A stretch of 43,485 nucleotides of DNA. Origin: a virus. The stretch spans positions 1 to 43,485 of IMG/VR virus record IMGVR_UViG_3300047586_000034; one strand, written 5' to 3'. Under the pieces are notes generated by a model. That model did no database searches. It saw only the letters and a program-made list of their open reading frames with translations, and was not told the DNA's origin. Positions 2,078 to 41,951 of the stretch are shown one piece after another. The position numbers and the translations under genes are program-made. Numbering within the stretch: the stretch's first letter is position 1; the number at the start of each line of letters is the position of its first letter.

Positions 2078-2950
2078 TTACAAGGTATTTACATAATCTT
2101 TTAACTGCTGTGTAAAATCCACCCGTTCCTCGGTTTCCCGTTCCTGTACTTCATCGTAAGTGCTTTGGTCAAACACACTTTCAATGGCTGCCGTAACCAT
2201 GCGCTGCAATACCTTTGGGTCTATTGCATCAAGTTCTACCTGCCCCAGCCCTTCCCATTTGGCGCTTCTGCTGTCACCCTCTTTTATTGGTGCTGGCGGT
2301 AAACCCATTTCCACAACCTGTGCCTCCATAAGTGCAATGCGCCTTACTTCAATATCTTCCAAGCCCATTCTGCGCAGGTTTTCTTCAATGCTGCGGGGTA
2401 TATCCTCGCCGCTTGGGTCGTAATCCCCAAAGTAAAGTATAATGGGGTGGCGGCCATCGTCAACGGCTGCCTGCATCCTGTCGTACGTATCACGTAAAAA
2501 GGTAAGGCTGGGGTAACCCTTGCAAGCGCCCAGTGCAACACCATGGCGGCTGGTTACGCTTTCAAATACGCCCTGCAATGCCTTTTTTTCTATAAAAACC
2601 TCGGGGTAATAATACTGCCCTTCCCACTTATTACGGTAATAGCTGGTCATCCATGCTTTTACCTGCCATTTGGCATCCCTTACTTTGGTTTCCAGTTCTA
2701 CATTTTCAAACCGTGTGAGGCCAATAATTTCACGGTCATTGTCGCTAAAGGCTGTAAAGTTTATAATGCCAGCCCAGCGGGCATCAATCATGGCATTAAC
2801 CACTCTTTTGTAATGGTTAATGGTGTTTGTCATGCCCCGTGCCACAAGCCTGTAATGCAGCCCCCTAATTGTTAAAATGCCAGCTTCGTACTCTTTTACA
2901 ATTTCCACGGCGTTTTCGGTAATCCATTTGTTCGTAAATTCATCTTTCAT
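2078..2950 (-). CDS. Spo11/topoisomerase VI A-like protein with TOPRIM domain
   Basis: The 290-residue protein has an N-terminal winged-helix region with LTIRGLHYRLVARG (Tyr33 in the position of the 5Y-CAP tyrosine of TopoVI-A/Spo11 relatives), followed by YKRVVNAMIDARWAG. The C-terminal half is a TOPRIM domain with Glu121 in FIEKKAL and GDYDPSGED (Asp176, Asp178). These are the metal-binding residues of topoisomerases. No partner B (GHKL ATPase) gene is present, so a DNA-binding or nicking role is likelier than a full topoisomerase. ATG at 2950, preceded by ACGAAG, is preferred to a GTG at 3115 whose extra 55 residues look non-coding. The 200 bases upstream hold no convincing gene. Confidence 0.8.
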   Translation of the reverse strand: MKDEFTNKWITENAVEIVKEYEAGILTIRGLHYRLVARGMTNTINHYKRVVNAMIDARWAGIINFTAFSDNDREIIGLTRFENVELETKVRDAKWQVKAWMTSYYRNKWEGQYYYPEVFIEKKALQGVFESVTSRHGVALGACKGYPSLTFLRDTYDRMQAAVDDGRHPIILYFGDYDPSGEDIPRSIEENLRRMGLEDIEVRRIALMEAQVVEMGLPPAPIKEGDSRSAKWEGLGQVELDAIDPKVLQRMVTAAIESVFDQSTYDEVQERETEERVDFTQQLKDYVNTL

Positions 2951-3150
2951 CTTCGTAAGTATTGTGTACCCTTGCTTTCTTTGGCGGGGTACGGTTAGTA
3001 ATAAAAAATAAGTGCAGCCAAGGGGAGGCCGTTTGATTGGGTGGTATGGTTCACCCGTTGCCTCCCTTTGTACAGCATTACTGCCAAGGCTGCACAGTGG
3101 CAGCCAGCGCCGCACTTACGGCATACGGTTACCCGTGCGCTGGCCTGTGT

Positions 3151-5158: not shown

Positions 5159-5671
5159 CTAGGTAAAATACTCTTTATACTGGGCAGGTATTTGTTTAAG
5201 CAGTGCAGCCCTTATTTCTGCCTTTTCAATATCCCCGTCCTTGTCTATATCAAAAAGCGGGTTCTGCTTTGCCACAATGGCTGGGGTAATTACATACGTT
5301 TCGGGTTTGCCCACCGCAGCTGGCCAAAATATGCCGCAGTATAAGTCCACCCAATCCTTGTACCTGCCCTTAAATATGCCAAGGTGCTTTTTAACATAAT
5401 CCAACTGCTGCACGTTGCTCATGGCCGCCAGTGCCTCGCAGGTTGTGCCCAAAAAGCGGGCTGTGCTGGGCATAAACTGTATCAAACCTGTTGCCCCGCT
5501 TACCTTATTGCGGGCGGTGCTGTCCAGCGTGTGGCCAGTTTCAAACCACATGAGGAAAATTAAAGCGTTGGGGTCAACACCAAGATAAGCCGCAACACTT
5601 TTTACTTTAGCAATAAATGCAGCTTTGTTGACCTTTATTAAATCTTCAAAAATTAGTTTATCAGAATCCAT
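5159..5671 (-). CDS. Endolysin: lytic transglycosylase-like domain with EF-hand
   Basis: The 170-residue protein has a soluble lytic transglycosylase-like fold signature: Glu44 in FLMWFETGHT as candidate catalytic acid, then SGATGLIQFMPSTARFLG (59-75), typical of SLT/muramidase families. Residues 141-152 (DIDKDGDIEKAE) form a canonical EF-hand calcium loop. No signal peptide is present, so release would depend on the holin-like gene at 6391-6852. The gene overlaps the GIY-YIG gene by 19 bases. Its first 30 residues duplicate, with synonymous DNA changes, the remnant at 6263-6394, showing that this is a replaced 5' end. Confidence 0.85.
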   Translation of the reverse strand: MDSDKLIFEDLIKVNKAAFIAKVKSVAAYLGVDPNALIFLMWFETGHTLDSTARNKVSGATGLIQFMPSTARFLGTTCEALAAMSNVQQLDYVKKHLGIFKGRYKDWVDLYCGIFWPAAVGKPETYVITPAIVAKQNPLFDIDKDGDIEKAEIRAALLKQIPAQYKEYFT

Positions 5672-6285
5672 CCTTTTGATTTTTTAAGTTGCCCGCTACA
5701 TAACTGGGAAAGCATTGATTTTTTTAACTGGTATTTTGTTCTTAATTCAAACATTGTGCAAATTTCAATACCATAAGCGGCGTGGTAAAAGGTGTAAATG
5801 TCTTTTTTCTTGTGGCTTGAATTCTGCTTATTTCCCGTTATTATTTTTAGTATTGTCGTTTTGCTTAAATGGCTTCCCAGCCTATATTTGCGCATTTTTT
5901 TCTTTGTCGCATCTGACCTGCGCACGCCTTTATTTACTTTTCCTTTGTATTGTGCAGATCGTTCTTTTTTAAATTCCTCTGTACGCACGCAACCCAAACA
6001 GCTGCCAGCAGTTGGGGCACAATTAAAGAATGGCTGTAAGTTATCAATATGGAATTGTTCACGTGTTATGTTGAATTCTGGCAGGCAGGGTTCTAATATT
6101 GTAAATACCAAATCAGCCTCACCATATTTGTTGTAATGATTTTGCAGTTTTGGAGAGTGGTGTTTGTTTTCCCTTAAATCCTTTTTATGTCGTGCCCACC
6201 TGCTGCTTATGTTTACAGCACTACCAATATAAAAACGCTGTGGTTTTAACTGTGATTCAATCTTATAAATTCCGCTGAGTTGCAT
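5653..6285 (-). CDS. GIY-YIG homing endonuclease (copy 1, in endolysin gene)
   Basis: The 210-residue product starts with a GIY-YIG nuclease domain: GIY at residues 5-7, YIG at 19-21, Arg in SSRWARH, and the Glu-containing REQFHIDNLQPFFN. It is followed by a basic region with NUMOD-like DNA-binding repeats (RRSDATKKKMRKYRLGSHLS). ATG at 6285 matches the starts of the two paralogues; the longer TTG start at 6291 is less likely. It sits inside the 5' end of the endolysin gene and overlaps both the remnant and the rebuilt gene. AT-rich relative to its neighbours. It should cut a phage lacking the insert at the same place. Confidence 0.9.
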   Translation of the reverse strand: MQLSGIYKIESQLKPQRFYIGSAVNISSRWARHKKDLRENKHHSPKLQNHYNKYGEADLVFTILEPCLPEFNITREQFHIDNLQPFFNCAPTAGSCLGCVRTEEFKKERSAQYKGKVNKGVRRSDATKKKMRKYRLGSHLSKTTILKIITGNKQNSSHKKKDIYTFYHAAYGIEICTMFELRTKYQLKKSMLSQLCSGQLKKSKGWILIN

Positions 6286-6394
6286 ATCCAAAGGTACAAA
6301 ATATTAGCCACCGCACCCCCAAAAAAGCAGCCACGCTTATTACCTTGGCAATAAACGTGGTGCGGTTCTGTTGTATAAGTTCCTCGAAAATCAT
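6263..6394 (-). pseudogene. Truncated 5' remnant of the endolysin gene
   Basis: ATG at 6394 overlaps the stop of the holin-like gene as ATGA, the coupling expected for the original endolysin start. Its first 27 residues (IFEELIQQNRTTFIAKV, SVAAFLGV) match residues 7-32 of the intact endolysin (IFEDLIKVNKAAFIAKV, SVAAYLGV) closely in protein but much less in DNA. The match ends after LGV, and the frame then runs 16 unrelated codons to a stop inside the endonuclease gene. It is the cut-off beginning of the gene that the GIY-YIG element entered. Confidence 0.8.
6289..6323 (-). promoter_or_regulatory. Possible promoter of the GIY-YIG gene
   Basis: TACCTTTG (6296-6289) fits the Bacteroidota TAnnTTTG box and lies 3 bases from the ATG at 6285. 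A TTTG at 6323-6320 stands 23 bp upstream, slightly long for the -33 element. The two other GIY-YIG genes have similar boxes at the same distance (TACCTTTA before 7742, TATATTTA before 19899), so the element may carry its own promoter and give a nearly leaderless message. Confidence 0.4.
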
Positions 6395-7184: not shown

Positions 7185-7261
7185 TTCTTTTTTTTAAGGG
7201 GTGTTACTATTATGTTGTATTGCCGCTTGTAAATGCTATCACCCGTGATATTTTTTTCTGC
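7181..7261 (-). pseudogene. Orphan 3' remnant of the membrane gene interrupted by GIY-YIG copy 2
   Basis: In a frame different from the endonuclease, 26 codons read AEKNITGDSIYKRQYNIIVT then PLKKKK and stop at a TGA that overlaps the next ATG as ATGA. The tail resembles the -1 frame extension just before the endonuclease (VDSLKYNFDIRIQKVKK). It is therefore likely the old C-terminal end of the gene at 7806-8210, cut off by the insertion. The match is short, so this rests on context as much as on similarity. Confidence 0.5.
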
Positions 7262-7742
7262 TTACTTCCCTATAACTCCAAGCATCGTTCCCCTTCTTAG
7301 CCTTAGACATTTTCAATTTTGTATCGTCTGTCATTTTTAACTTGGAACTACTCATTTTTAATTTCGTATCATCTGAAAGAAAATGCTTTTTACCTTTTGC
7401 GTTCTGATTACCCTTCATTTTACTGATTGTCTCAATTGAGTGTTTTACCCCAATTCTACTCCCTGCCGTTAAACAGACATTGAAATATGGATTAAAAGCG
7501 TCAATAAAAAACTGCTCATTTCTAATCAGGTCGCACTTTTCACAACCGATAATTACTGAAAATATTAAATCTGATTCGCCGTATTTGTTAAAGTGGTTTT
7601 GGAGTTTGGGGTTGTAGTGTATTCCTTTTCTTAACTCACGTAAATGATCACGCCAGCGGCGTTGGATATTAACACCACTACCAACGTAAATTCTGTGTGG
7701 CTTTTTTAATGATTGAATTTTATATATACCGCTGATTTTCAT
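7239..7742 (-). CDS. GIY-YIG homing endonuclease (copy 2)
   Basis: A 167-residue protein with GIY (residues 5-7) and YVG (19-21), Arg in QRRWRDH, and NEQFFIDAFNPYFN carrying the usual Glu. The C-terminal half has NUMOD3-like repeats (SIETISKMK, DDTKLKM twice) for DNA binding. Strong similarity to copies 1 and 3 in the first 100 residues shows a common origin. It lies between the 3' end of the membrane gene and that gene's orphan tail. A TACCTTTA box stands 4 bases before the ATG. Confidence 0.9.
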   Translation of the reverse strand: MKISGIYKIQSLKKPHRIYVGSGVNIQRRWRDHLRELRKGIHYNPKLQNHFNKYGESDLIFSVIIGCEKCDLIRNEQFFIDAFNPYFNVCLTAGSRIGVKHSIETISKMKGNQNAKGKKHFLSDDTKLKMSSSKLKMTDDTKLKMSKAKKGNDAWSYREVSRKKYHG

Positions 7743-17093: not shown

Positions 17094-17642
17094 TTATTTG
17101 TTCAGTGACACAAGGATGCCATTGCCGTGTATCACAAGCGCACATCCCGCCTGCGCCAGCGCTGCCCGCAGGGTGGTGAAATGTTGTTTAATTCGGTCAC
17201 ATTGTTGCCCTTTTAAACTTTCATGTGTAAGCAAATCAACCCCAAAAACGTGTATTTCTGTTGCCCCAAGATACTTGAATGCAATGGCAGCAGCGACAAA
17301 GGGGCTGCAAAGGCTTTTCGGTACTGCTGGCGTGTTCAGTTGACAGACATAGTTTGGGTATTCATACTGTAACTCAATGTGTTCTATATCGTCACGGTCT
17401 GCCCAATCCTTTACCTCGGGGTGTTCCCATGTAGGGAAGATGCTATAAAATTTTTTAGGTCTGCACTGCTCGAGTACCTTAAGGCGTTCGGGTGTAAACC
17501 TGTCTTTCATATCCACACACACCACGTAATCGGTTTGTACCCAGCGCCATATATCATTAACGCCTATCGTGCAATCAAACCCATTCTGCTGGTATAACTT
17601 AAGGCTTTCACCCAGCCCCAGTACAGCCACTATCTTACCCAT
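17094..17642 (-). CDS. Sialyltransferase/DUF115-like glycosyltransferase-fold protein
   Basis: The 182-residue protein begins VAVLGLGESLKLY with a nucleotide-binding-like loop, followed by GVNDIWRWVQTDYVVCVD and, later, ATEIHVFGVDLLTHES and a C-terminal LVIHGNGILV. This order (G-x-G-x-S, GVND, D-x-x-x-F, F-x-V-x-F-G-x-D-h) resembles GT42 sialyltransferase/MptE-like DUF115 folds. It likely moves a sugar or similar group and is the last member of the glycan island. It overlaps the upstream glycosyltransferase by 13 bases. Confidence 0.6.
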   Translation of the reverse strand: MGKIVAVLGLGESLKLYQQNGFDCTIGVNDIWRWVQTDYVVCVDMKDRFTPERLKVLEQCRPKKFYSIFPTWEHPEVKDWADRDDIEHIELQYEYPNYVCQLNTPAVPKSLCSPFVAAAIAFKYLGATEIHVFGVDLLTHESLKGQQCDRIKQHFTTLRAALAQAGCALVIHGNGILVSLNK

Positions 17643-18316
17643 TGACCGTCAATTTCTTTTTCGCCACGCAATTTATTGGCCGTGCGTGTACCGCCAAAGT
17701 CATGTTGTATGTATTTGCTTGGTCGCCCCACCCAGTTTATGCCAGCGCCGCTGGTGTGCCCCGTGAGGCCATCGAACTGTTTGAGCATCTTTTCTGACAA
17801 ACCACGGCGGGCAATTTCTGCCATGGCCTTATATGCAGGTGCGCCATGGTGGACGAAGCGTGGAAATCGAAAATACTGTTGCACATTCAGCAGCATAAAA
17901 TACGGGTGCAGGTATGGTATCGGCGTTTTGTGTCCCCGCTCGGGCGTGCCAAAATCAAAACCATCCTCGCCCAACCAGTACACCCAGCCCACGCCGTATG
18001 TTTCGCTGTCCAGCATCGCCAGCATTTTGCTCACTGGGTTTTTAAGCATCACCGTATCGCTGTCAAACACCAGCGCCGTTTTTGTACCGCACCTTTCCAG
18101 TGCATAATCCATGCCCCGCCCGTGGCCAATGTTGTAACCCACTTGATAAACCGTGTTAAGCGGGCTGCGCAGGCTGGCAACATAGGCGGCGCAAGGATTT
18201 TTTGCCTCACTGCCATCGACTATTATGAGGGGCAGAAAAGGCAAATGCAGCCGCAGGCTTTCGTATGCCCGCTGGAACAATTCTTGGGTGTTATAAACTA
18301 CACAAATACCAGTCAT
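17630..18316 (-). CDS. GT-A type glycosyltransferase
   Basis: A 228-residue protein with an N-terminal GT2-like Rossmann region (ICVVYNTQELFQRAYESL, LPLIIVDGSE, YNIGHGRGMDYAL) and a metal-binding DxD motif in ALVFDSDTVML. The C-terminal half has IPYLHPYFMLLNVQQY and Trp/His-rich acceptor parts. It probably transfers sugar from a nucleotide donor to a virion or host glycan. It is the first gene downstream of the iteron region, which must therefore hold or adjoin its promoter. Confidence 0.8.
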   Translation of the reverse strand: MTGICVVYNTQELFQRAYESLRLHLPFLPLIIVDGSEAKNPCAAYVASLRSPLNTVYQVGYNIGHGRGMDYALERCGTKTALVFDSDTVMLKNPVSKMLAMLDSETYGVGWVYWLGEDGFDFGTPERGHKTPIPYLHPYFMLLNVQQYFRFPRFVHHGAPAYKAMAEIARRGLSEKMLKQFDGLTGHTSGAGINWVGRPSKYIQHDFGGTRTANKLRGEKEIDGQWVR

Positions 18317-18595
18317 TTTTTTGTAGTGTCATTTTTACCTTCATATTCTATTTATATTTATATTCTATTTATATTGTGTACAGGATACCCCCATCCTGTA
18401 CCCATCCTGTACCCATCCTGTGGTCACCCTGTCCCCATCCTGTATACAGGGTGTATGTTATGTCGCTGGTAATCAAATTATTAAAAATTCTATTTTACAT
18501 AATATTAGCTTTCATCCTGTGGGCATCCTGTACCCATCCTGTACCCATCCTGTACCCATCCTGTATACAGCGTGCCGCATCCTGTACCCACCATG
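18317..18595. other. Intergenic iteron region, candidate origin or partition site
   Basis: This 279-bp gap between two glycosyltransferase genes holds two phased arrays of an 11-bp repeat, separated by about 60 bp of AT-rich DNA, and a flanking AT-rich block (18341-18376) with the direct repeat ATATTCTATTTATATT at a 17-bp period. The AT-rich centre contains the 15-mer TTCTATTTTACATAA also found at 4341. No gene is supported. Origin of replication, centromere-like site or multi-operator are the best options. Confidence 0.7.
18376..18590. repeat. Phased 11-bp repeat arrays, unit CATCCTGTACC
   Basis: Array 1 has repeats starting at 18392, 18403, 18414, 18425 and 18436. Array 2 has repeats at 18513, 18524, 18535, 18546 and 18557, with another at 18578. 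Spacing is exactly 11 bp within arrays and 77 bp (7 x 11) between the last of array 1 and the first of array 2. The 18425 copy is degenerate. The fifth copy in each array continues into a near-palindrome CATCCTGTATACAG(G/C)GTG. An inverted half-site TACAGGAT stands at 18378. All sites thus face the same side of the DNA helix. Confidence 0.9.
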
Positions 18596-19306
18596 CTAAA
18601 GGTACAAATCTGCATCATTTCCTATTAACTCTCTGAGTTTCAATCCGTCAGCATCAGAAAGCATGTGAGGTATGAAACCATGCCCCGAGCCAATACCCTT
18701 GCGACCAGCCAGCCCTTTTATGCCAATCGACAGTTTTTTTTCAGTTTTGAACAAATTTACACTGCTGGCAAGGCGAAAAAATTCGTAATCGATAAATTTT
18801 TGTGTGTACAACATTTCAAAAAGAGGAAGTGCCGAAACTTTAAAAGCAGTTTGAAAAAGGCTTGACCACCCAGCATTTTGGTTTTCAATCCACCGCCGCA
18901 GACGTACGTTATAATAAATCGTGTGGGTTTCACCCCATATATCACAGCCGTTCATCCTGTCATACATCGCTTGCAGGTACTCTGGGCGGTAATAGTCGTC
19001 ATCCTCGATTATGTAAATAGCCTCAATCTGGCTGGGGTGGTAGGCCATGAGCAGAGCATCGATGCCAGCCTTCAGGTTACGTCCCTGTGTGTTTTGCCCC
19101 TCCACCCACATAGGCTCGGGATAAACCTTCAGTATATCCCACTGGTAATGAAATGCCCGTACAATAAAGTCGCTGCTGCGTGGTAGGGCATCATCAACAA
19201 TCACCCAGCACACATCACCTGTAAAACTTTGGCGGTGCATAAACTTGGCACATAAGCGCAGCTGTGCCTCCCTTGCCCCTGTTGGCGTGATAAGTGCTAT
19301 ACACAT
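18596..19306 (-). CDS. GT-A type glycosyltransferase, rebuilt 5' end
   Basis: A 236-residue protein: MCIALITPTGAREAQLRLC start, VCWVIVDDALPRSS, and EAIYIIEDDDYYRPEYLQAM with an acidic DDD motif as metal and nucleotide-sugar site, like GT2-family phage glycosyltransferases. The gene overlaps the GIY-YIG gene by 10 bases. Its first codons (IALITP) repeat the remnant at 19896-19940, so its present start came with, or survived, the endonuclease insertion. Confidence 0.8.
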   Translation of the reverse strand: MCIALITPTGAREAQLRLCAKFMHRQSFTGDVCWVIVDDALPRSSDFIVRAFHYQWDILKVYPEPMWVEGQNTQGRNLKAGIDALLMAYHPSQIEAIYIIEDDDYYRPEYLQAMYDRMNGCDIWGETHTIYYNVRLRRWIENQNAGWSSLFQTAFKVSALPLFEMLYTQKFIDYEFFRLASSVNLFKTEKKLSIGIKGLAGRKGIGSGHGFIPHMLSDADGLKLRELIGNDADLYL

Positions 19307-19899
19307 AAATTATTTTTTAACTGTTTCCTTACAATCCAAGCCTTTTTACCTGATTCACTCATTTTTTCTTTTGTTTTTTTAGTTGCTGGCTTATGTATAA
19401 TTTTTTTCTGTGCCTCACACATATTGTGCCTTGCACTTTCACTTCTCTTTTTTCCTAAATGACCTTTGCTTATATTCAGATTATGTTCTGGCGAGTGTTT
19501 TTTTCCAAGGTGAGCATCCCTGTTTAATTTTTTTGATTCCGCAGTGTGCTGTTTGCCAAAAAAATGATTTTTGTTTCCTTTTTTCGCTGCATTGACTGGG
19601 TTTTTACAACCAATGGAACTGCCAGCAACTTGGCAAATGTTAAAAAAAGGCTTATGCAAATCAATGAACTCCTGTTCTAATTTTAATAATTCTTCTTTCT
19701 TGCATTCAGTCAAAAGTCCAAACACCAAGTCGTCTTTGCCATACTTATAAAAGTGGTTTTGAAGTTTAATATTTTCATGCACCCCCTTGGTTAATCTTAT
19801 GGTGTGATCTTTCCACCTTCTTTCAATATTTACAGCCGCACCAATGTAAATGCGTGCTGGTTTTATAACGGATTGTATACAGTAAATGCCTGTTTTCAT
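19297..19899 (-). CDS. GIY-YIG homing endonuclease (copy 3, in glycosyltransferase gene)
   Basis: The 200-residue protein has GIY (residues 4-6) and YIG (18-20), Arg in ERRWKDH, and LEQEFIDLHKPFFN with the usual Glu. The C-terminal half is strongly basic with repeated NUMOD3-like motifs (HTAESKKLNRDAHLGKKHS, KRSESARHNM, KTKEKMSESGKKAW). ATG at 19899 fits the paralogues; an upstream in-frame ATG at 19914 is less likely. It sits between the cut-off start of a glycosyltransferase gene and its rebuilt start. A TATATTTA box stands 4 bases upstream of the ATG. Confidence 0.9.
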   Translation of the reverse strand: MKTGIYCIQSVIKPARIYIGAAVNIERRWKDHTIRLTKGVHENIKLQNHFYKYGKDDLVFGLLTECKKEELLKLEQEFIDLHKPFFNICQVAGSSIGCKNPVNAAKKGNKNHFFGKQHTAESKKLNRDAHLGKKHSPEHNLNISKGHLGKKRSESARHNMCEAQKKIIHKPATKKTKEKMSESGKKAWIVRKQLKNNLCV

Positions 19900-19940
19900 G
19901 GCATAAATATACAAAAATTAGGTGTAATTAGTGCAATCAT
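19896..19940 (-). pseudogene. Truncated start of the glycosyltransferase gene
   Basis: ATG at 19940 overlaps the epimerase stop as ATGA. The frame reads MIALITP and then diverges to a stop after 14 codons. The intact gene downstream of the endonuclease reads MCIALITPTG. The six shared residues IALITP use different codons at most third positions, so they are homologous but not a simple duplication. The short length limits certainty; the ATGA coupling and the parallel case at 6263-6394 strengthen it. Confidence 0.65.
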
Positions 19941-23590: not shown

Positions 23591-26020
23591 TTAAATCGTA
23601 GCACGTACTTTTACTTTACTCACCTCACTTGTTTTGGCGTTTATATCCTCCACCGTCACCACTGGCGCTGGCAGCCCCTTAAGCATCGCCTGCATACTTT
23701 CAGCCGTGAGCATATTGGCCATACTGGCTGCCGTGGCGGCAGCTGGCGCTTGGCTGGGCGATAGGCTGCTCGCCCCTGAGGCTGGCATGGCAACACGATG
23801 CAGCGCTGGGTTGTGGGGTATCGTTGTGCCGCCACCACTCTTACTGCCACCACTGCCAGTGTTGACAGCCAGTATGTTGCGCACATTGGCCAGCCCCGTG
23901 GCTATCACACTCACCATCAGTGCCACACGGGCAACGGTGCTGGGTACTGTTTTGTCGGCCAGTGCTTGGCTGGCTGCCACCCACGTATTTATTGTTGCCT
24001 CGGCTATGGCAAACACTTTGCCAAGGGCTGTCTGGTCGCCCACCGCCTTGCTCATTGCTCCCAGTGCGCCTGCCACGGCAGTTTTTTCATTCATCATGAT
24101 ACCGATACGGTTTTCAGCCAGTGCCTTCTTGGCATCCGTATACTGCTGGTCGATTACCAGTTTTTGGTTGGTGGTCATCTTCTCATACTCCACACTGGCC
24201 AGCATAGCGCCATACTCTTGGTCTAAAACTTGAGTGAGGGCATCGTTGGTTTGTAACCCCGTTTTGCCCTCCTGTGCTGCCTTCAGCTTTTGCAGTTCCC
24301 ACCCTGCGTCTATATCCTCCTTGGTCTGTTGCAGGTTGCGCTTGCGGTCTGCCTCCTTGCGCTCAATGGCCTTCTGTTGTGCCTCAAAGTCCAGTGCATC
24401 CACCGCCTCCAAGTACTGGGCGTGCAGTACCACCTTCTGGCTGTTCGTTAGTTTTTCATCCTTCATGTCGGCATCATACTTGATCTTCAGCAGTGCCTTT
24501 GCCCGTACCCTCTCGTCTGCATCCAGCTTGGCAATATCATCTTCGTACTTCATTTGCAGTTTTTCACGGGCAGCAAAGGATGTGCCCACCGTGTCCAGTT
24601 CCCTGTCCAGATCGGCCTTCAGCTGTGCCCTGCGTACCTTGCCTGCATCGGCCAGTATTTTGTTTCCAATCTCATAGTCCTTAACTTGGTTCTGTAAGTC
24701 CTGTAAGCGCTCCTTGCGTATTTCCTCCAGCAGTGTACTGATCTGTGTCTTAGCACGTTTGTTGTGTTCATAAAAGGAGGTATCGGCATCAGTTATTTTG
24801 GCATAACTTTCTTCCAGTGCCTTCACTCCCTCCACGCCCAGCAGGTTATATGCCTTCTGTAACTGGGCGCTGCCCTTCAGTGCTGCATCCTGTTTGTCGG
24901 CATCCATAGCCACCCAGTCAGCCAGTGTCTTGGCATCGATCTTACCCTTTAGGGCGGCATTCCCTGCGTCGATATCGAACTGGCGCTGGGCATATTTTAG
25001 TTCCTGTTCCGCTTGCAGGCTACTCAGCCGCATGGCTTCCTTCAGATAGTCCACCCGCTGTTTATCCAGCAGCGCACGGTCTTTACTCATGTATAAGTAT
25101 TTCTGTATCAGGTTGTTTTCCTTGGCCTCCTCCGAAACATGGAAGGCCATCTCGCGGGTCAACTGCGCCTGTGCCCGTGCGAATTCAGCGGCGGCATTGG
25201 CTGCATTTTTTATCTCGGCTGCAATGCCCGTAAATGCGGCCTTCATATCCTCGGCTGCCAGCTTAAACTCACCATGGAACAAATGATTAAAGGCATCGAT
25301 CACATTCACCAGCCGCTCACGCAGCACATTGAGCACGGCATGTATGCTGGCCATGACCTCCTTTAGTTTGTTTGCGCCCTCGGCAGTGCTTACAAATACC
25401 TTGTACAACCCAAAAAGTACAGCCACAATGGCTGCAATAATTGCCACTATCGGGTTGGCCAGCAGTGCCAGCAGTGACTTGCCAAACGACTTTACACCAC
25501 CCTCGGCAGCCTGCAGCGGTGCTGGCAACAGACCGAATGCCCCGCTGATGCTCTCTCCATACCGTCCCACGTTCAGTGTGCCATTGTTTATTTCCTTGTT
25601 GAAGTCAAGCAATGCCTGCTTGCCGTCTGCCACTATCTTGCTCTGTTTTATGTAGGCATCTGACAGTTTCAGTACGCCATCTTTGTTACGCACATACCCA
25701 TCGCCCATGAGTTTCAACTGTACCTCTGCCAGTTTTTGGCGGCGCAGCAGTTCTTCATAACTGTTTTTCTGGGCATTGTTTGCCTTTACAGCCTCCTGTA
25801 CCAGCTTGGTGGCATTGCGCTGTTCGCCCTCGGCCACCTTCAGTGCCGCATTACTGGCTTCTATCTGGGCAGCACTGGCCTTGCCACTATCAATCAGTTC
25901 CTTATTCGCGGCTTTTAGGTCGTTAACGGCCTTTTTTGCATCTGCTGCTCTTTGCGCATAAGCGGCAATGTTATCCTGAAAGTCTATTAAGTAAGTCTTT
26001 TTTTCCTGTGTATCTGCCAT
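23591..26020 (-). CDS. Tape measure protein
   Basis: The 809-residue protein is the longest in the genome. It has an N-terminal coiled coil (residues 20-150, Ala/Lys-rich), a hydrophobic membrane-like segment (about 195-220, ALLANPIVAIIAAIVAVLFGLY), further long coiled coils (300-600), a second weakly hydrophobic part and a low-complexity Ser/Ala-rich stretch near 740. This is the make-up of siphophage tape measures, which set tail length and help DNA cross the envelope. It is flanked by tail-tip genes upstream, and no tail-assembly chaperone frameshift pair is visible next to it. Confidence 0.9.
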   Translation of the reverse strand: MADTQEKKTYLIDFQDNIAAYAQRAADAKKAVNDLKAANKELIDSGKASAAQIEASNAALKVAEGEQRNATKLVQEAVKANNAQKNSYEELLRRQKLAEVQLKLMGDGYVRNKDGVLKLSDAYIKQSKIVADGKQALLDFNKEINNGTLNVGRYGESISGAFGLLPAPLQAAEGGVKSFGKSLLALLANPIVAIIAAIVAVLFGLYKVFVSTAEGANKLKEVMASIHAVLNVLRERLVNVIDAFNHLFHGEFKLAAEDMKAAFTGIAAEIKNAANAAAEFARAQAQLTREMAFHVSEEAKENNLIQKYLYMSKDRALLDKQRVDYLKEAMRLSSLQAEQELKYAQRQFDIDAGNAALKGKIDAKTLADWVAMDADKQDAALKGSAQLQKAYNLLGVEGVKALEESYAKITDADTSFYEHNKRAKTQISTLLEEIRKERLQDLQNQVKDYEIGNKILADAGKVRRAQLKADLDRELDTVGTSFAAREKLQMKYEDDIAKLDADERVRAKALLKIKYDADMKDEKLTNSQKVVLHAQYLEAVDALDFEAQQKAIERKEADRKRNLQQTKEDIDAGWELQKLKAAQEGKTGLQTNDALTQVLDQEYGAMLASVEYEKMTTNQKLVIDQQYTDAKKALAENRIGIMMNEKTAVAGALGAMSKAVGDQTALGKVFAIAEATINTWVAASQALADKTVPSTVARVALMVSVIATGLANVRNILAVNTGSGGSKSGGGTTIPHNPALHRVAMPASGASSLSPSQAPAAATAASMANMLTAESMQAMLKGLPAPVVTVEDINAKTSEVSKVKVRATI

Positions 26021-28344: not shown

Positions 28345-30048
28345 CTAACAGGTTGTATATGCTGGTGTGCTGCTTATAGTTACATTTTCAAATGTTACAT
28401 CACCCTCCCCGCCATCGTTCCACGTACCGCCGCCGCCCAGCGTACCTGCACAATGGTAACCACTTGCATTGCTTATCGGCACATGGCTGGCAATTACTGT
28501 ACGCACGCCATTAAGCGTAATAACAATGTCGGCATAATCAAAGGCAACAAATCGTACGCCGCTGCCATATATGGCCTTGGCAAACACGTAAAAGTCATAA
28601 TACTGCCCCAAGTTCTGGGCAACACTTGCCACGGCACTGCAAACGGGTGTTGCGGCAAGGGCAAGGGCTGGGAAAATTGCGGTGTAACCACTGGGCGGGT
28701 ATGGTGTGTTAGTGTTTTTACCCACTGCCACTGGCGCACCTAAGTAATGTTGCTGCGTGCCCGTCCATGTGCATTTAAGTTCATTGGCTGCATTTGCAAC
28801 CCCCAGCTGGCATACATTGTTACCACTGCCCATATTAACATACTGCGCAGTAACATGTACCACCATGCCAGTTGTATAAACGCCGTTAGTAATTTCGTAT
28901 GTGTCGGTGGGGTCAAAAACAGCAATCGTAAAGCCGCTGTGCGTATATCCTGTGTAAAAATACCAGCGTGCCATTGCTGTTGTTACCGTAAAGCGCTGGG
29001 TTGTTAAAGCGTTCCATGCCCAGCCACCAGCTGGCGGGAAAATACTGCTGGTTTCATCGGGTGGCTCTACCACTGGCGGCTCAACTGGCGGGGTGTCCTT
29101 TATAAGCCGCACCGAAAAATAAGGCGTATATGCTGGGTTGGTTGCTGGTACAAATGGCAGCTGCAAAATTTCACCCGTATCGTATGCCATTACAAAGCAT
29201 GGCTGTACACCGCCTGCACCAGCAGCCCAGTGATAGCAATAGCGATAAAGGTTATGGTAACCCACGTTGGGCGTTAAATCCTCGGCCAGCACAACCATAT
29301 AAGCCCCTGCGCCAACGGCTGAAAAATCCCTTGCATCGGTTGCCCCTGTGTTGGGGTCTTCCCACTGTACAAAGCCAATTTTCTTAAGCACCCCACCTGC
29401 CACAGCATTGCCGCCGCAGTAATCAATAAGCGTTTGCCATTCTGCTGGCGTGGGCACATGGTAACCCGCTGGGCAAAAGCCTGCACTCATTACCTGTGCG
29501 TAAGTATACAGGCCTCCAAAGTATGGGCGGTTGGCCTCATCATCATTGTACACCCTGCTGGCTGGGTATGCTGCATCGTAGTTTTTGCACATCCAAACCT
29601 GTGTCCCTATTGTAACATCACACTGCGGGTCTGGCGGTATTATTACGGGCGGCTTTACTGGACTAAAAGCAAAGGCGGCAACACTTGGCGCACGGTTGCC
29701 AAGGTTTACGCCAACGGTCATTTCATATCCCCCAAATTTATTGTCATAAACCTTTACTGTGCCTGCATCCATCCTTACATTTGCCCAGCCCTTATCGGTG
29801 TACAGGTATACCTCCCTGCTGTTAAGTATTGTGCGCAGTCCCTCAACCTGTATTTGTGATAAAGAACCACTGTTTATTTCAATGGTTCTTGCGCTCCGTG
29901 TGCGGTAGTTGCCGCCCTCTGTTGTGCTGTTTATCCCGCCAGCCAAAAACTGCCAGTAATGCCAACCGTTGTACCACCAGCGCAGGTAATACCCGCTGGG
30001 GCGGCTGGTAATTATTACACGGCCAAGCTGGTATATATTTTGGCTCAT
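28345..30048 (-). CDS. Tail protein with FISUMP domain (putative adhesin)
   Basis: In 567 residues: a ~120-residue N-terminal module shared with the next gene (GYYLRWWYNGWHYWQF), a Pro-rich linker (PVKPPVIIPPDP), a FISUMP domain at about 143-325 (TIGTQVWMCKNY, GGLYTYAQVMS, FCPAGYHVPTPAEWQTLI, ARDFSAVGAGAY, FSVRLIKD), a second Pro-rich linker, and a beta-sandwich C-terminal half. FISUMP is known from Fibrobacter and Bacteroidota surface proteins and has a C-type-lectin-like pattern. It likely displays a binding domain at the tail tip. Overlaps its upstream neighbour by ATGA. Confidence 0.8.
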   Translation of the reverse strand: MSQNIYQLGRVIITSRPSGYYLRWWYNGWHYWQFLAGGINSTTEGGNYRTRSARTIEINSGSLSQIQVEGLRTILNSREVYLYTDKGWANVRMDAGTVKVYDNKFGGYEMTVGVNLGNRAPSVAAFAFSPVKPPVIIPPDPQCDVTIGTQVWMCKNYDAAYPASRVYNDDEANRPYFGGLYTYAQVMSAGFCPAGYHVPTPAEWQTLIDYCGGNAVAGGVLKKIGFVQWEDPNTGATDARDFSAVGAGAYMVVLAEDLTPNVGYHNLYRYCYHWAAGAGGVQPCFVMAYDTGEILQLPFVPATNPAYTPYFSVRLIKDTPPVEPPVVEPPDETSSIFPPAGGWAWNALTTQRFTVTTAMARWYFYTGYTHSGFTIAVFDPTDTYEITNGVYTTGMVVHVTAQYVNMGSGNNVCQLGVANAANELKCTWTGTQQHYLGAPVAVGKNTNTPYPPSGYTAIFPALALAATPVCSAVASVAQNLGQYYDFYVFAKAIYGSGVRFVAFDYADIVITLNGVRTVIASHVPISNASGYHCAGTLGGGGTWNDGGEGDVTFENVTISSTPAYTTC

Positions 30049-32923: not shown

Positions 32924-34071
32924 TGATCGACGCCTCCCCCGCCCGTCTGTGTGTATTGGAAATAGTACCGCCCTGCATCTATCAGGTGGTTAAAGGCATC
33001 AATGGGTATGCCTGCCTTTTTGTCCGACCAGATATACTGGTTGAATTCCTTGGCCAGATTGGCACTGTCCTCGGTGACAATGAAGTCATATCCCTGCATG
33101 ATCTTAATGGCCTCGGGAACTGACCAGCCATCCTTCGCTTTGTTGGTACGTTTGATGTTGAAGTTTTTACCCAAATCCTTTATCATACGTGCGTCTGCAC
33201 TGTCGGCAATTATCAGATCGTGCCGCTTGCAGTGGTAGCCAATCAGTGTGCGTAAATCCTCTGTGCTGTTGCCGCTTTTGTACACCCGTTCATCCCAGTA
33301 CACCTTCAGCCCCTTATCATCCACCACCATACGCACCAGTGCATCGGGCGCATTGAAACCGAAGTCCAGCCCATGCCCATACGCCTTGCCTGTTGGCCAT
33401 TCGCCGTAATGCCAGTTGGGAAAGATACACCCCTCCAGTTTGCCCAGCTGCCCCAGCCCGTAAACCTTCCACCAGTTCTCAAAGCCCTCTTTATCCTTCT
33501 TTTGTTCTATGTTGAACCGTTCCGATTCTGGCAGCCACGGGTTGTCAAGGTACGTGCTGACGATTACGAAGTGTTTGAAGTTAGGCATCACCTTGGTAAA
33601 CAGCCAGAATTCTTGGTCTGGGTTGAAATCGACAAACACAGTGCCCTGTGTACGGCTGGCCAGCTGGTCGTATACTTCGTATGTGATCTTGCGGTTACAT
33701 TCGTTTATGTACAGTATGTCCCTGCGTATGCCGTGTGCCATGGCAATGTTGCCCTCTACCCCAAAAAATACCACGGTGGAGTTCCCGATGTAATACGTGC
33801 TGGTTGATATGTTTTTCATCAGTGAAGGTATCTCACCAAAACTTTGCAGTATGCGGTCGAAGTCGGCCATCGCCCCAGACTTCAGGTGTGGCAGGGCGTA
33901 ACTGACCACCCATATACGCAGGCCAGTTTTGCTGCGCCGTGCCAGCAGGTAAAGCAACTGAAGTATACTGTACGTTTTACTGCTTCCCTGCCCGCCTTGG
34001 TTGATGATCAACGGCTCGCCACGCTGGTACGCTTCAAGGTTTTTGAAAAAGGTTTTACTCAGGTTTGGCAT
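32911..34071 (-). CDS. terL: Terminase large subunit
   Basis: A 386-residue motor protein. The ATPase half has Walker A GGQGSSKT (26-33), Walker B DILYINECN (118-126, Glu124 catalytic) and a coupling-like VSTYLDNP. The nuclease half has the RNase H-like acids Asp236 (GLDFGFN), Asp290 (IIADSADARMI) and Asp365 (HLIDAGRY). It powers DNA packaging into the prohead and makes the cut. Overlaps the small subunit gene by 17 bases. Confidence 0.95.
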   Translation of the reverse strand: MPNLSKTFFKNLEAYQRGEPLIINQGGQGSSKTYSILQLLYLLARRSKTGLRIWVVSYALPHLKSGAMADFDRILQSFGEIPSLMKNISTSTYYIGNSTVVFFGVEGNIAMAHGIRRDILYINECNRKITYEVYDQLASRTQGTVFVDFNPDQEFWLFTKVMPNFKHFVIVSTYLDNPWLPESERFNIEQKKDKEGFENWWKVYGLGQLGKLEGCIFPNWHYGEWPTGKAYGHGLDFGFNAPDALVRMVVDDKGLKVYWDERVYKSGNSTEDLRTLIGYHCKRHDLIIADSADARMIKDLGKNFNIKRTNKAKDGWSVPEAIKIMQGYDFIVTEDSANLAKEFNQYIWSDKKAGIPIDAFNHLIDAGRYYFQYTQTGGGGVDQWHG

Positions 34072-34965: not shown

Positions 34966-35130
34966 TTACATTTTATAGTCAATATTCCATTTCTGTTTTA
35001 CTGCCCTGCGTATACCCCGTGCGCTCAGGCCTTTTGCAGCCTGCTGGGCAACCCATATCTTTATTTCCTTAAACATTTCATCGCTCACTACCTGTGGCGG
35101 CACTTGGGGTTTCTGTTTTTTTGTTTCCAT
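34966..35130 (-). CDS. Small protein, 54 aa
   Basis: A 54-residue, lysine-rich protein (METKKQKPQVPPQVVSDEMF, ...GLSARGIRRAVKQKWNIDYK M). The second half could form a small helix-turn-helix. Its first coding bases share an 18-mer with the small gene crossing the circular join, and the palindrome CATCCTGTATACAGGATG lies 25 bases upstream. It precedes the frameshifted gene by 6 bases. No family is recognised. Confidence 0.6.
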   Translation of the reverse strand: METKKQKPQVPPQVVSDEMFKEIKIWVAQQAAKGLSARGIRRAVKQKWNIDYKM

Positions 35131-35155: not shown

Positions 35156-35173
35156 CATCCTGTATACAGGATG
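35156..35173. repeat. Perfect 18-bp palindrome, iteron consensus
   Basis: CATCCTGTATACAGGATG is its own reverse complement and is the perfect form of the near-palindromes that end both iteron arrays (18436-18453 and 18557-18574). It lies in the short gap between the chimera gene at 35194 and the small gene starting at 35130, so it could act as an operator for that gene, bound by the same protein as the arrays. Confidence 0.8.
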
Positions 35174-35193: not shown

Positions 35194-35448
35194 TTATGAG
35201 AAACGGGCTCTCAAAAGTACAGTGAAAGCGTGGAAAAAATCACGGTTGCAGCTGCTCAGTTCAACGTATGTGGTTTGCTCCTCTGGCCATGTGTGTATTG
35301 CAAAATGGCTCTCGGCCAGCAGGTATAGACAGGTGTAACCCTGTGGCTGCCATGGGAAGTCGGCCACAGAGGCCACCAGCTGCTTGAACTTGGCATCGGT
35401 GATATACCGTGGGTTGGCGTCGTTCAGCTTAATTTCTTCAATCTTCAT
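35194..35448 (-). CDS. ParB-like start fused to AdoMet-decarboxylase-like catalytic core
   Basis: The 84-residue product begins like ParB/sulfiredoxin-fold domains (MKIEEIKLNDANPRYITDAK, FKQLVASVADFP) and then switches to an AdoMet decarboxylase (SpeD) core: QPQGYTCLYLLAESHFAIHT then WPEEQ and VELSSC. Ser47 in the ESH self-cleavage site, His52 and Cys67 keep the +5 and +20 spacing of bacterial SpeD (Ser63, His68, Cys83). The SpeD N-terminal beta chain is missing and the C terminus is about 10-15 residues short. ATG at 35448 is used, since upstream codons look non-coding. It may be a deletion fusion of two genes. Activity is doubtful. Confidence 0.7.
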   Translation of the reverse strand: MKIEEIKLNDANPRYITDAKFKQLVASVADFPWQPQGYTCLYLLAESHFAIHTWPEEQTTYVELSSCNRDFFHAFTVLLRARFS

Positions 35449-35531
35449 ATTTCGTGTTATTGGTGTGTAACGTGCTGTTTGCGGGCATATCGCCCTTGGG
35501 CTGTACGTGCGTGCCTTTATGGCAGCGTTGG

Positions 35532-35972
35532 TCAGACAAATTTCAGCCTTGGGGCTGTTTCCACATACTCCAGCGGTGGTGCGCTCACTGGCAGTGTGCC
35601 GTTCATATAGTTCGTCAGGCACTCTCGGCCAGCTGCGAAGCCATTAACAAAAAAAGCGGCATACCCCAACTGGCGCAGCCGCATTATAATTTCAATCTGT
35701 TCCTTAAGGTGCTGGTCGGCACGCTGGCCGCCATCCTTGCGCAGTACCGTTTCCGTGGTAGCCTTGCACTCCAGCATTAAGCCGTAATACCCCGCCTGTG
35801 GCTTTAGTATTATCAAATCTGGTATGCCCCTGCTGCTTTTAAGTGGTTTAACCTTTTTGGCCAGCCCTATGGGCAGCCGTACCCCGCTTAAGTCACTGGT
35901 AAAAATAGCCTCGGGGTAGTTTGTGCGCAGGTAATTGCAGAGCAGCGCTTGTACATAATCTTCGTGTTTCAT
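35532..35972 (-). CDS. VRR-NUC domain nuclease
   Basis: From ATG 35972 the 146-residue protein is a PD-(D/E)XK nuclease of the VRR-NUC type: Asp52 in RGIPDLIILKP and Glu68-Cys-Lys70 in LMLECKATTE, followed by a Gln-rich helix (DQHLKEQIEIIMRLRQLGY) and a typical YAAFFVNG strand. Such stand-alone domains cut branched or structured DNA in phage replication or recombination. It is the first gene after the terminator at 35985-36057. A TTG start at 36026 is rejected because it would lie in the hairpin. Confidence 0.85.
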   Translation of the reverse strand: MKHEDYVQALLCNYLRTNYPEAIFTSDLSGVRLPIGLAKKVKPLKSSRGIPDLIILKPQAGYYGLMLECKATTETVLRKDGGQRADQHLKEQIEIIMRLRQLGYAAFFVNGFAAGRECLTNYMNGTLPVSAPPLEYVETAPRLKFV

Positions 35973-36125: not shown

Positions 36126-37016
36126 CTAAAATACCTCACAACTTTCTGAGCAGCCATTGCTTGTATCAAGGTCAAAAAGCAATAACTGTTTGTCTGTTTC
36201 TGGTACTGTTTTGCTGTCATCTTCGGCCTTGTTAAAAGGCTGTTTTGCAAGTTCCACCAATTCCGCAATGCTCATATTATTACGGAAAAAGTGTATTGGC
36301 AGCTTAATGTTAAGGTTGTGCTTTTTATGCTCGGGCACAAAATACTCATACTTTTTTTCCATTGCCTGCCACCAATCAACTGCCTCTGGCCTTTCCTTAA
36401 TGCTGGTAAGCAGTTTGCGCAATGATTTTTTAAAGCACAAATCACAATTCCCCTCATACCCCTTAAGCTTTAAATCAAACGGGGCAGCCAACCAAAAGCG
36501 GTTAATATCAGCCTTTACAGTGCCCGCCTTTATAAGTGGGTATATATACCTTTCCTTCACCGCCCTCGGGCTTATCCTGTCAAACTCATCAGCCCTTATA
36601 CCAATGGCAGTAAAATACCCACGCCAACCAATTTGGCGGGCATAGTTTTTTATAGTTGCCCGCTTAAGTTCTATGGTACAAAATGGCGTTCTTACATTGC
36701 AAATACCAAACTTTTTAAACAGCAATTCAAAAGGCTCACCATTGCGGCTGGCGGTGGCGTTATTTACAACCTTTGCCCTAATGCCATGCCCTGCGCCAAA
36801 TTCAGTGCCCGTAATCCCCTCAATCCAAACGGTATTAAAGCCCAGTACGTCATCGCATTGTTGTATAAATTGCAGGGTTTCTTCGCGTTCTTTCCCTGTG
36901 TTTGCAAAAACTACAATCATTTCATACTGTTCTTTATATTCCCGTAAAAGTAATTGGGTCATAAAGGCACTGGTGCGCCCCCCGCTAAAGCTTATTAACA
37001 GCTTTGGCTTATTCAT
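36126..37016 (-). CDS. PAPS reductase/DndC-like PP-loop enzyme
   Basis: The 296-residue protein has a PP-loop ATP-binding motif SFSGGRTS (9-16), a VFANTGKEREETLQF strand-helix as in PAPS reductase and DndC-type enzymes, RTPFCTIELKRATI, and a CDLCFKKS Cys pair. Family members adenylate a substrate to move sulfur or other groups. In phages this could serve base or backbone modification. No other Dnd or modification gene is present, so its substrate is unknown. It overlaps the previous gene as ATGA and is the last before a terminator. Confidence 0.85.
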   Translation of the reverse strand: MNKPKLLISFSGGRTSAFMTQLLLREYKEQYEMIVVFANTGKEREETLQFIQQCDDVLGFNTVWIEGITGTEFGAGHGIRAKVVNNATASRNGEPFELLFKKFGICNVRTPFCTIELKRATIKNYARQIGWRGYFTAIGIRADEFDRISPRAVKERYIYPLIKAGTVKADINRFWLAAPFDLKLKGYEGNCDLCFKKSLRKLLTSIKERPEAVDWWQAMEKKYEYFVPEHKKHNLNIKLPIHFFRNNMSIAELVELAKQPFNKAEDDSKTVPETDKQLLLFDLDTSNGCSESCEVF

Positions 37017-37671: not shown

Positions 37672-38199
37672 TTAAAGTGGTTTATCGGCATTTTCTACCC
37701 TTTCCTTTTCGGCTGCATCTATTGCCGCCGTTTCCTTTTCTGCAATAGCCGCCATCGGTTCAATTAAGCGCTGTTCAATTTCGGTCACTTCCTTGCGCAG
37801 CTGCGGCTCGGTTTCCATAAGCAGGGCGCACTTAGTTTTACCAAATTGTACATTGTTGCGGTTATTACCAAGGGCATTGGCAATTTCATGCTGGCTGCCG
37901 TATTTAACGCTAAAGTACCAAATCACCTGCCGTACCCGTACCAGTTCTTTGTACCTGCGCTTACCCCGTACATCACCCAGCGCCACGCCATAATACTGTA
38001 CGGCCACCTGTTCAATTACCATAAGGCGTTCAATGCGTGCGCTGGTTTCACCCTCCACCTGTTTCCACTTAAGGAAACCAGCCAAAAGCTGCTCGGGGCT
38101 GTTCTCGGTGCGGTGTGCTGTAAAAAACTGGGCAAAGGCCAGCATTTCGTAATACGTGTACTGCCTTGCCCTCAGTGCTGTTCGCTGTGCTGCTGTCAT
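37672..38199 (-). CDS. DnaA domain IV-like DNA-binding protein
   Basis: The 175-residue protein carries, at about 65-135, a pattern close to the DnaA C-terminal DNA-binding domain: YYGVALGDVRGKRRYKEL, VRVRQVIWYFSVKYG, IANALGNNRNNVQFGKTKC, where DnaA has the R-x-x-x-v-x-x-R-q-v-a-m-y-l and R-D-H-T-T-V signatures. The ATPase domains are absent. It may bind the phage origin, such as the iteron region, and guide the helicase loader. The ATG overlaps the exonuclease stop as ATGA. Confidence 0.7.
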   Translation of the reverse strand: MTAAQRTALRARQYTYYEMLAFAQFFTAHRTENSPEQLLAGFLKWKQVEGETSARIERLMVIEQVAVQYYGVALGDVRGKRRYKELVRVRQVIWYFSVKYGSQHEIANALGNNRNNVQFGKTKCALLMETEPQLRKEVTEIEQRLIEPMAAIAEKETAAIDAAEKERVENADKPL

Positions 38200-39232: not shown

Positions 39233-39401
39233 CGTTCTTATTTTTAGTATAATTAGCATATCCACACCCAAGACATTTTTTAAATCCAGCCGTTTTATAG
39301 CCAGATTTATTTCTTGGGCACATAAAATATTTTCTGGGAATCATTGCTTTTGAGCATGTTACAAATTCCCCAGTTTTCTTGTTTACTGCTGATTTTCCCA
39401 T
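39216..39401 (-). CDS. Small Cys-containing protein, 61 aa, AT-rich
   Basis: ATG at 39401 overlaps the stop of the DnaC-like gene as TAATG. The 61-residue product has four Cys (FVTCSKAM, KYFMCPRNKS, KKCLGCGYANY) that could form a zinc ribbon. It is much more AT-rich than its neighbours, a sign of recent entry, and was probably inserted into the replication operon. Confidence 0.7.
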   Translation of the reverse strand: MGKSAVNKKTGEFVTCSKAMIPRKYFMCPRNKSGYKTAGFKKCLGCGYANYTKNKNDDGKK

Positions 39402-40024
39402 TAAATAATTCTTAAGTTTTTGCCCTTTACCTCTACCACGCTGCACATTTCTGCAAGGCGGCTGGCAACCCGTGTGCCATATTGTTCCTCCACCCACTGC
39501 AAATCGTGGTTGCTGGTAAAGTGTGTTGGTACGCCCTTGCGCTGCCACAGGTTATACCGTGCCGTAATTACTTCCACCATCGGGTACAGTTCGCTGCCGT
39601 ATAGTTTCACCATAAGCGGCTCGCTGCCCAAATCATCGTAATACGCTGGCTTTTCCCAAAGTATGTACTGCGCAAAGGCTTCTTCGCTGCGCACCAGCGC
39701 CACGGCGTTACAATCATACTGCCGCCACCAGTTGTCTGGCCAGCAGGTAACAGTCATGTGCCGTAGCGCTTCCAGCAATACACTTTTGCCCGTACCGCAC
39801 TTACCCCACAGGTACACCCCACGGGTAAGCGGGTACAGGGCATTGGCATTGCCGCTGGCATATAGCATTAAATTGCCCAGTATGGGGTATTGGTTCGGTA
39901 TATATTCACGGTTAAAAACTGCCTCAAATATTTCCGTATACCAACCCTTCCACTCCTCGGCATTTGCAGGGTACTGGGTAAGCTTGTACCGCTGGGGCGG
40001 GGTAAACGTAACAGGTTTATTCAT
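39401..40024 (-). CDS. DnaC/IstB-like helicase loader ATPase
   Basis: A 207-residue AAA+ protein with Walker A GKCGTGKS (74-81), Walker B AYYDDLGSE (127-135), sensor 1 in PTHFTSN (166-172) and box VII YGTRVASRL (182-190, with Arg189 as arginine finger candidate). Relatives load the replicative helicase on DNA. The initiator-like gene before it overlaps by 8 bases. No phage helicase is seen, so it may load the host DnaB. Confidence 0.9.
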   Translation of the reverse strand: MNKPVTFTPPQRYKLTQYPANAEEWKGWYTEIFEAVFNREYIPNQYPILGNLMLYASGNANALYPLTRGVYLWGKCGTGKSVLLEALRHMTVTCWPDNWWRQYDCNAVALVRSEEAFAQYILWEKPAYYDDLGSEPLMVKLYGSELYPMVEVITARYNLWQRKGVPTHFTSNHDLQWVEEQYGTRVASRLAEMCSVVEVKGKNLRII

Positions 40025-41729: not shown

Positions 41730-41951
41730 TTACATGTTACTTTTTACATAATTACTTCGTTCCTGTTTCAGCAGGTAAATGGCTGCCATATAAAAGCCAG
41801 CACTGTTGTACACCTTTACGCCTGCCGTTTCCAGCAGGGTAAAAGCTTGCGGGTTCTTTTCCGTTGCATCGTGTGCCAGCTGTAAGGCCAGCAAATCAGT
41901 ATCCCTGTGGCAATGCTCTAAAAGCCACTTATGGTAAGCTGTTAGTTCCAT
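41730..41951 (-). CDS. Small helical protein, 73 aa
   Basis: From ATG 41951 (MELTAYHKWLLEHCHRDTDL), the 73-residue product is all helical with QLAHDATEKNPQAFTLLETA and ends KQERSNYVKSNM. It overlaps the nuclease gene by 23 bases and precedes the RDF-like gene by 5. The longer frame starting at 42113 would run inside the nuclease gene and is not supported. No family is recognised. Confidence 0.7.
   Translation of the reverse strand: MELTAYHKWLLEHCHRDTDLLALQLAHDATEKNPQAFTLLETAGVKVYNSAGFYMAAIYLLKQERSNYVKSNM

Follow-up and report, generated by a model that had tools for sequence, protein, structure and literature searches.

A 279-bp spacer between two glycosyltransferase genes of a tailed phage carries two regular arrays of a 9-bp repeat, next to the least stable DNA of the genome. 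We see about an even chance that an initiator encoded by the phage assembles on this spacer, as on iterons or DnaA boxes, and that the site works as an origin or in replication control.

Genome layout

The phage is IMG/VR virus record IMGVR_UViG_3300047586_000034, and its whole 43,485 bp make up the window analyzed here. Its host phylum is probably Bacteroidota, as inferred from the phage's relatives. All recognizable genes are on the minus strand. In coding order, they begin with an exonuclease, a Gp3-like factor, a replisome organizer, a DnaC-like loader and a DnaA domain-IV protein, and continue through a PAPS reductase, an S-adenosylmethionine (SAM) decarboxylase, the terminases, tail genes and glycan genes to a protease and the major capsid protein. 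The genes that matter here are as follows.

41929-43074, minus strand: exonuclease
40669-41724, minus strand: Gp3-like recombination-directionality-factor family protein (PF18897), adjoining the replication genes
40017-40709, minus strand: replisome organizer with DnaA-like/DnaD-like PHROGs, the alternative candidate binder
39401-40024, minus strand: DnaC-like helicase loader
37672-38199, minus strand: DnaA domain-IV-like DNA-binding protein with an NRNNV motif, the best candidate binder
36126-37016, minus strand: PAPS reductase-like gene, between the replication and packaging modules
35194-35622, minus strand: SAM decarboxylase-like gene, a GTG-initiated ORF, also between these modules
23591-26020, minus strand: tape measure, among the tail genes
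23362-17094, minus strand: glycan genes
18596-19306, minus strand: glycosyltransferase-like GTc, which lies upstream of the arrays and by itself scores below the Pfam GT2 cut-off
17630-18316, minus strand: family-2 glycosyltransferase GTd, the first gene downstream of the arrays

Pfam or PHROGs scans covered part of the window's ORFs and recognized no integrase among them. The N-terminal 53 residues of the decarboxylase ORF match a sequence in the related fragment L013 that overlaps the L013 nuclease gene in another frame, so the true start of the decarboxylase is probably downstream. Three GIY-YIG homing endonuclease genes (19297-19914, 7239-7742 and 5653-6291) are present, two of them with NUMOD3; one is inserted between the epimerase gene and GTc, next to the array, where the relatives L078, L072 and L082 lack it. 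Close to the low end of the record (650-1153 and 2078-3115) are HNH endonuclease and DNA topoisomerase-like genes.

Two arrays of a 9-mer at 11-bp steps

The spacer between GTc and GTd is organized as follows.

18317-18595: the 279-bp spacer holding both arrays
18316-18378: AT-rich stretch left of array 1, a candidate DNA-unwinding element
18379-18387, minus strand: inverted iteron TATCCTGTA, forming a hairpin with 12-nt arms with the first forward copy
18392-18444, plus strand: array 1, five 9-mers at 11-bp steps (18392, 18403, 18414, 18425, 18436)
18436-18453: head-to-head near-palindrome CATCCTGTATACAGGGTG ending array 1
18464-18512: AT-rich stretch between the arrays
18513-18565, plus strand: array 2, five 9-mers at 11-bp steps (18513, 18524, 18535, 18546, 18557)
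18557-18574: head-to-head near-palindrome CATCCTGTATACAGCGTG ending array 2
18578-18586, plus strand: additional forward 9-mer CATCCTGTA

The 9-mers are of the CATCCTGTA type and are separated by 2-bp spacers. Variant copies read CATCCTGTG at 18414 and 18513 and CACCCTGTC, with two mismatches, at 18425. From the last site of array 1 (18436) to the first site of array 2 (18513) is 77 bp, and the array starts fall at exact multiples of 11 bp. A preliminary description of this DNA had reported two sets of five repeats with this spacing, each closed by a near-palindrome, and this is confirmed. It had also placed every site on the same side of the helix, which is true only if one turn takes 11.0 bp. 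With 10.5 bp per turn, each step adds a drift of about 17 degrees, and array 2 comes to lie about 190 degrees around from array 1.

A chance origin of the arrays is excluded. The window contains 34 matches to the 9-mer with at most one mismatch, compared to 8.5 on average and at most 16 in 100 shuffled sequences, and two arrays of at least four copies at an 11-bp step, compared to none in 20 shuffled windows. Furthermore, the core of the 9-mer is conserved while the 2-bp spacers differ (CC, GG, TT, CG and GT), a combination that favors a bound site over recent slippage.

These same features bear on the idea that the arrays are a functionless repeat, produced by slippage or duplication, or a piece of an interspersed host repeat. 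The unit of array plus AT-rich DNA does have a duplicated look, the arrays are absent at the corresponding junctions of relatives, and a scan of genome contigs found similar 11-bp-step arrays of CATCCTGTA in four MAGs unrelated to one another, two of which have them dispersed. We nevertheless consider a functionless repeat unlikely: the core is kept as the spacers vary, the palindromes use the same half-site even 16.6 kb away, and a second phage, G322, has equivalent arrays of another 9-mer. The class was also missing from the Bacteroidota sampled: apart from the seed MAG, CATCCTGTA arrays with up to one mismatch occurred in none of 247 and 296 overlapping samples of this phylum, to which the seed MAG and, by inference, the phage's own host belong. 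An interspersed host repeat should recur many times across the host phylum, and these samples show no such recurrence. The four MAG arrays are compatible with independent origins as 11-bp tandem repeats. In an Anaerolineales MAG (G020) and an Opitutae MAG (G021), short 11-bp arrays with the core ATCCTGTA are dispersed genome-wide. An exact repeat search of IMG/VR returned no other contig.

AT-rich flanks

AT-rich DNA between and beside the arrays had been noted before, and both stretches turn out to be the lowest-stability 40-bp DNA of the genome. Ranked over the whole 43.5 kb, the 40-bp segment at 18336 is the least stable and that at 18469 the second; the 60-bp segment at 18315 likewise ranks first. 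The left stretch contains a 17-bp tandem repeat, ATTCTATTTATATT, at 18345 and 18362. AT-rich non-coding DNA is expected of promoters too.

GC skew does not change at 18.4 kb, one of the outcomes that the preliminary description had said would speak against its reading. The cumulative curve falls almost steadily, in a test that is weak here with all genes on one strand. Folding of the minus-strand RNA is only mildly unusual (z = -1.7). No Rfam family reached the gathering threshold, and no tRNA was found.

A distant palindrome and regulatory alternatives

The array 9-mer also occurs as a palindrome in another part of the window.

35156-35173: exact 18-bp palindrome CATCCTGTATACAGGATG of the array 9-mer, 16.6 kb from the arrays
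34966-35130, minus strand: 54-aa ORF immediately following the palindrome on its downstream side, with 90% identity in the related fragment L012

The palindrome is 25 bp upstream of the start of the 54-aa ORF and is a candidate dimer or operator site for the factor that would bind the arrays. The L012 sequence stops just short of the matching position. The ORF product is modeled as two helices and has no database family and no solid structural match.

An operator function could extend to the arrays themselves. A phage regulator bound to the arrays and to the distant palindrome would then switch downstream transcription, a possibility that we place well below an even chance. The genes switched would be the glycosyltransferase, protease and major capsid genes and, at 35.1 kb, the 54-aa ORF and terminase. 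A multi-operator promoter of this kind is the chief rival to an assembly site because every site precedes a gene and DnaA-like proteins also act as transcription regulators. The arrays and the palindrome lie between co-directed genes, each with a start codon downstream of it; the arrays of G322 adjoin start codons as well, and the AT-rich DNA is compatible with a promoter. Additionally, direct repeats combined with a palindrome of one half-site are typical of autoregulating initiators or repressors. However, sigma-70-like promoter matches are at chance level only, and the minus strand, read by eye, has no match to the Bacteroidota promoter consensus. Ten sites in two long arrays are also more than most operators have, and the tight operon of the relatives needs no promoter at this junction.

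The position of the palindrome about 0.64 kb upstream of the small terminase gene raises a further alternative, a packaging or recombination site for the small terminase or another phage DNA-binding protein. This seems highly improbable, as about 15.7 kb separate the arrays from that gene and the relatives have no such organization.

The glycosyltransferase junction in relatives

From tape measure to protease, the gene order in relatives is GTa-GTb-radical SAM-epimerase-GTc-GTd-g17094. This operon is complete in L078 and L082, and some of its genes are missing or undetected in L084, L089, G004, G005 and G013. GTc and GTd abut or overlap in L078, L082, L084, L089, G005 and G013; in G004, the gap between them seen by tblastn appears to be coding. 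Since most relatives in which the junction is visible leave no gap between the genes, we regard the 279-bp spacer as an addition in this phage. By sequence comparison, then, the glycan genes are a conserved core operon. The preliminary description had placed the arrays between two glycosyltransferase genes and away from the replication genes, which are indeed about 20 kb off, but the glycan "island" in which it set them is not variable: relatives keep the operon, and only the spacer is added.

Absence of the arrays from close relatives had been named in advance as evidence against an origin. The array is in fact absent from the GTc-GTd junction in every relative showing that junction. On the other hand, L072 carries a different repeated 9-mer there: at 876-965, an 88-bp AT-rich spacer holds four copies of ACTRTCGGA, two of them head-to-head, an arrangement matched by 6 of 500 shuffles. 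The junction may therefore host such elements repeatedly. Searches with GTc, GTd, the DnaA_C protein and the large terminase found no close relative spanning the array, and the closest fragments (L012, L013 and L077) do not extend to it.

Candidate binding proteins

Two proteins had been proposed as binders from the sequence of the window. The first, encoded at 37672-38199, has a DnaA domain-IV fold; the second, originally drawn at 40017-40676 and here extended to 40017-40709, is a DnaA/DnaD-like organizer. Both genes are 19-22 kb from the arrays, and neither holds an array. The 37672-38199 protein has 175 residues and matches PF08299 with E = 4.8e-7 and 30.2 bits, just under the cut-off of 31.5. 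Its structural model, built from two input sequences with a mean pLDDT of 68.5, matches 3pvp and 1j1v with a Foldseek probability of 1.00 and a TM score of 0.79 by target.

In E. coli DnaA, the helix from residue 434 reads the 3' part of the box, and Arg399 contacts the 5' part through the minor groove (PMC5742627). The phage protein retains the RxRQ stretch, with an arginine equivalent to Arg399. Unlike DnaA, it has NRNNV in place of the recognition motif DHTTV, and no AAA+ domain (domain III) was recognized in it. The motif is also altered in fragment L013 (NRNNI) and in G322 (KRDSV), and it is canonical in G004 and G014 (DHATI), G005 (DHSTI) and G016 (DHATV). No external array of at least four copies was found in the sequence examined from the latter four. 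Besides this phage, only G322 has lost DHxT[IV] and is of known array status. The pairing of motif change with external arrays compares two phages with four, which include a 17.7-kb fragment (G014), and gives about p = 0.07; at the level of sequence, this co-occurrence is suggestive only. Among known phages, homologues of the DnaA_C protein were limited to three weak, unannotated records, of which the one scanned (39.6 kb) has no array.

Repeats in replication genes of relatives and in G322

The replisome-organizer genes of lambda (O) and TP901-1 contain origin repeats. A periodic scan of near-complete relatives found 11- or 12-bp repeats inside the organizer gene in six of them: G016 and G009 (AAGGGGCTT), G014 (AGCAATGCT), G004 and G005 (TTGACC-type) and G018 (GCATTGCGG). 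Related repeat sequences are common to G016 and G009 and to G004 and G005. A repeat count blind to period did not separate organizer genes from shuffles, whereas the periodic scan does. Repeats at the protein level could account for part of such signals in coding sequence; the G014 repeat is one of DNA, as its word recurs in more than one reading frame. Further periodic repeats are present in some relatives, at 15 bp in G321 and several in G018.

The organizer gene of our phage has neither a periodic repeat nor a copy of the iteron. Its arrays resemble the organizer-gene repeats in being short, lineage-specific and spaced at 11 or 12 bp. They differ in lying about 21 kb outside the gene, in a glycosyltransferase operon, and in having more copies and palindromes.

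G322 provides a second case of external arrays. It has four copies of ATCATRTGT at 11-bp steps at each of two gene junctions, 28391-28432 and 33813-33854 (L099 8391-8432 and 13813-13854), where they touch or run into both the end of the preceding gene, at its stop, and the start of the following one. The least stable 40-bp segment of G322 is at 33802. The motif recurs in the G322 organizer-gene fragment at 56, 67 and 78, again at 11-bp steps. A search with the G322 terminase found no close relative of G322.

Comparison with known systems

In E. coli oriC, 9-mer sites lying 2 bp apart form two arrays of four (PMC6727663). The phage likewise has two arrays of co-oriented 9-mers with 2-bp spacers and an easily melted AT-rich neighbor (compare PMC6727663), and, as in the DnaA/oriC system, a DnaA domain-IV protein is encoded, in this case by the phage itself. 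Unlike oriC, it has five sites per array, and both arrays have the same orientation. The sites also differ, as CATCCTGTA has only ATCC in common with the DnaA box TTATCCACA. The window contains no exact copy of that canonical box and no cluster of it at one mismatch or fewer; among the other genomes, one loose pair was found, in G004 only.

Phage P4 has an auxiliary replication site, crr, with two blocks of type I iterons, direct repeats of about 10 bp away from the initiator gene, and uses the primase-helicase alpha. Our phage also has two blocks of direct iterons distant from its candidate initiator genes, with unrelated sequences. A crr-like region would repeat the iterons of the origin at a second cis site; bearing on this are the single palindrome at 35156 in the window and, in G322, the presence of one motif both in the organizer fragment and in the two arrays.

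In the plasmids F, R6K and pPS10, the Rep iterons and the Rep operator are direct repeats and palindromes built on one half-site. The direct repeats and palindromes of the phage have one common half-site as well, but the phage palindrome precedes the 54-aa ORF near terminase rather than a rep gene.

The parA promoter of plasmid R1 has direct repeats on either side, ten in all, and ParR requires a minimum of two 11-bp repeats (PMC9426499, citing Dam and Gerdes 1994). R1 parC has the layout seen here, two sets of five 11-bp direct repeats around a central AT-rich part, and a partition site had been proposed in the preliminary description. No ParM, TubZ or ParA-like NTPase and no ParR-like or other ribbon-helix-helix protein was recognized among the window genes scanned with Pfam or PHROGs, and the downstream gene is a glycosyltransferase. 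We regard a centromere-like site of the R1 parC type as very improbable.

A proposed assembly site for a phage initiator

Returning to the assembly site, we propose the following. Copies of a phage DNA-binding protein would sit side by side on the 9-mers at their 2-bp spacing and as head-to-head pairs at the palindromes. The binder would most likely be the DnaA-domain-IV protein (37672-38199) and less likely the organizer (40017-40709). The oligomer would strain the neighboring AT-rich DNA and open it, a step that would need partners because the protein has no recognized AAA+ domain. The organizer and the DnaC-like loader would then bring the helicase to the opened DNA. The site could thereby act as an origin or as an auxiliary replication-control site, by titration or handcuffing, and would have been added at a junction of otherwise tightly packed glycosyltransferase genes. 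We infer that the sites are bound, by which protein, that the DNA melts and that it works as an origin; what we observe are the sequence, its periodicity, the stability ranks, the lack of arrays at the relatives' junctions, the G322 arrays and the domain-IV fold.

The case for an origin, first raised in the preliminary description, has gained from the instability of the flanks, the top two of the genome, from the encoded domain-IV protein, organizer and loader, and from the repeats of relatives, both those in the organizer genes, which our phage lacks, and the external arrays of G322. It has lost from the steady GC skew, from the distance of about 20 kb to the replication genes and from the absence of the arrays at the junctions of relatives. 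Measured against iteron origins in general, the spacer has regular direct repeats near one helical turn and adjacent AT-rich DNA of low stability; it has no change in strand skew and no initiator gene that lies nearby or contains the iterons.

More tentatively, a stand-alone DnaA domain may have turned into an orthogonal initiator or regulator in this group. A rewriting of its recognition motif from DHxT[IV] to NRNNV or KRDSV would have gone along with a private 9-mer box, and oriC-like arrays with 2-bp spacing would have been placed outside the organizer gene at member-specific junctions. If this is true, these phages would provide protein-DNA pairs in which the DnaA motif and the box are both non-canonical, useful for the DnaA recognition code, as well as an example of replication-initiation sites located apart from the initiator gene.
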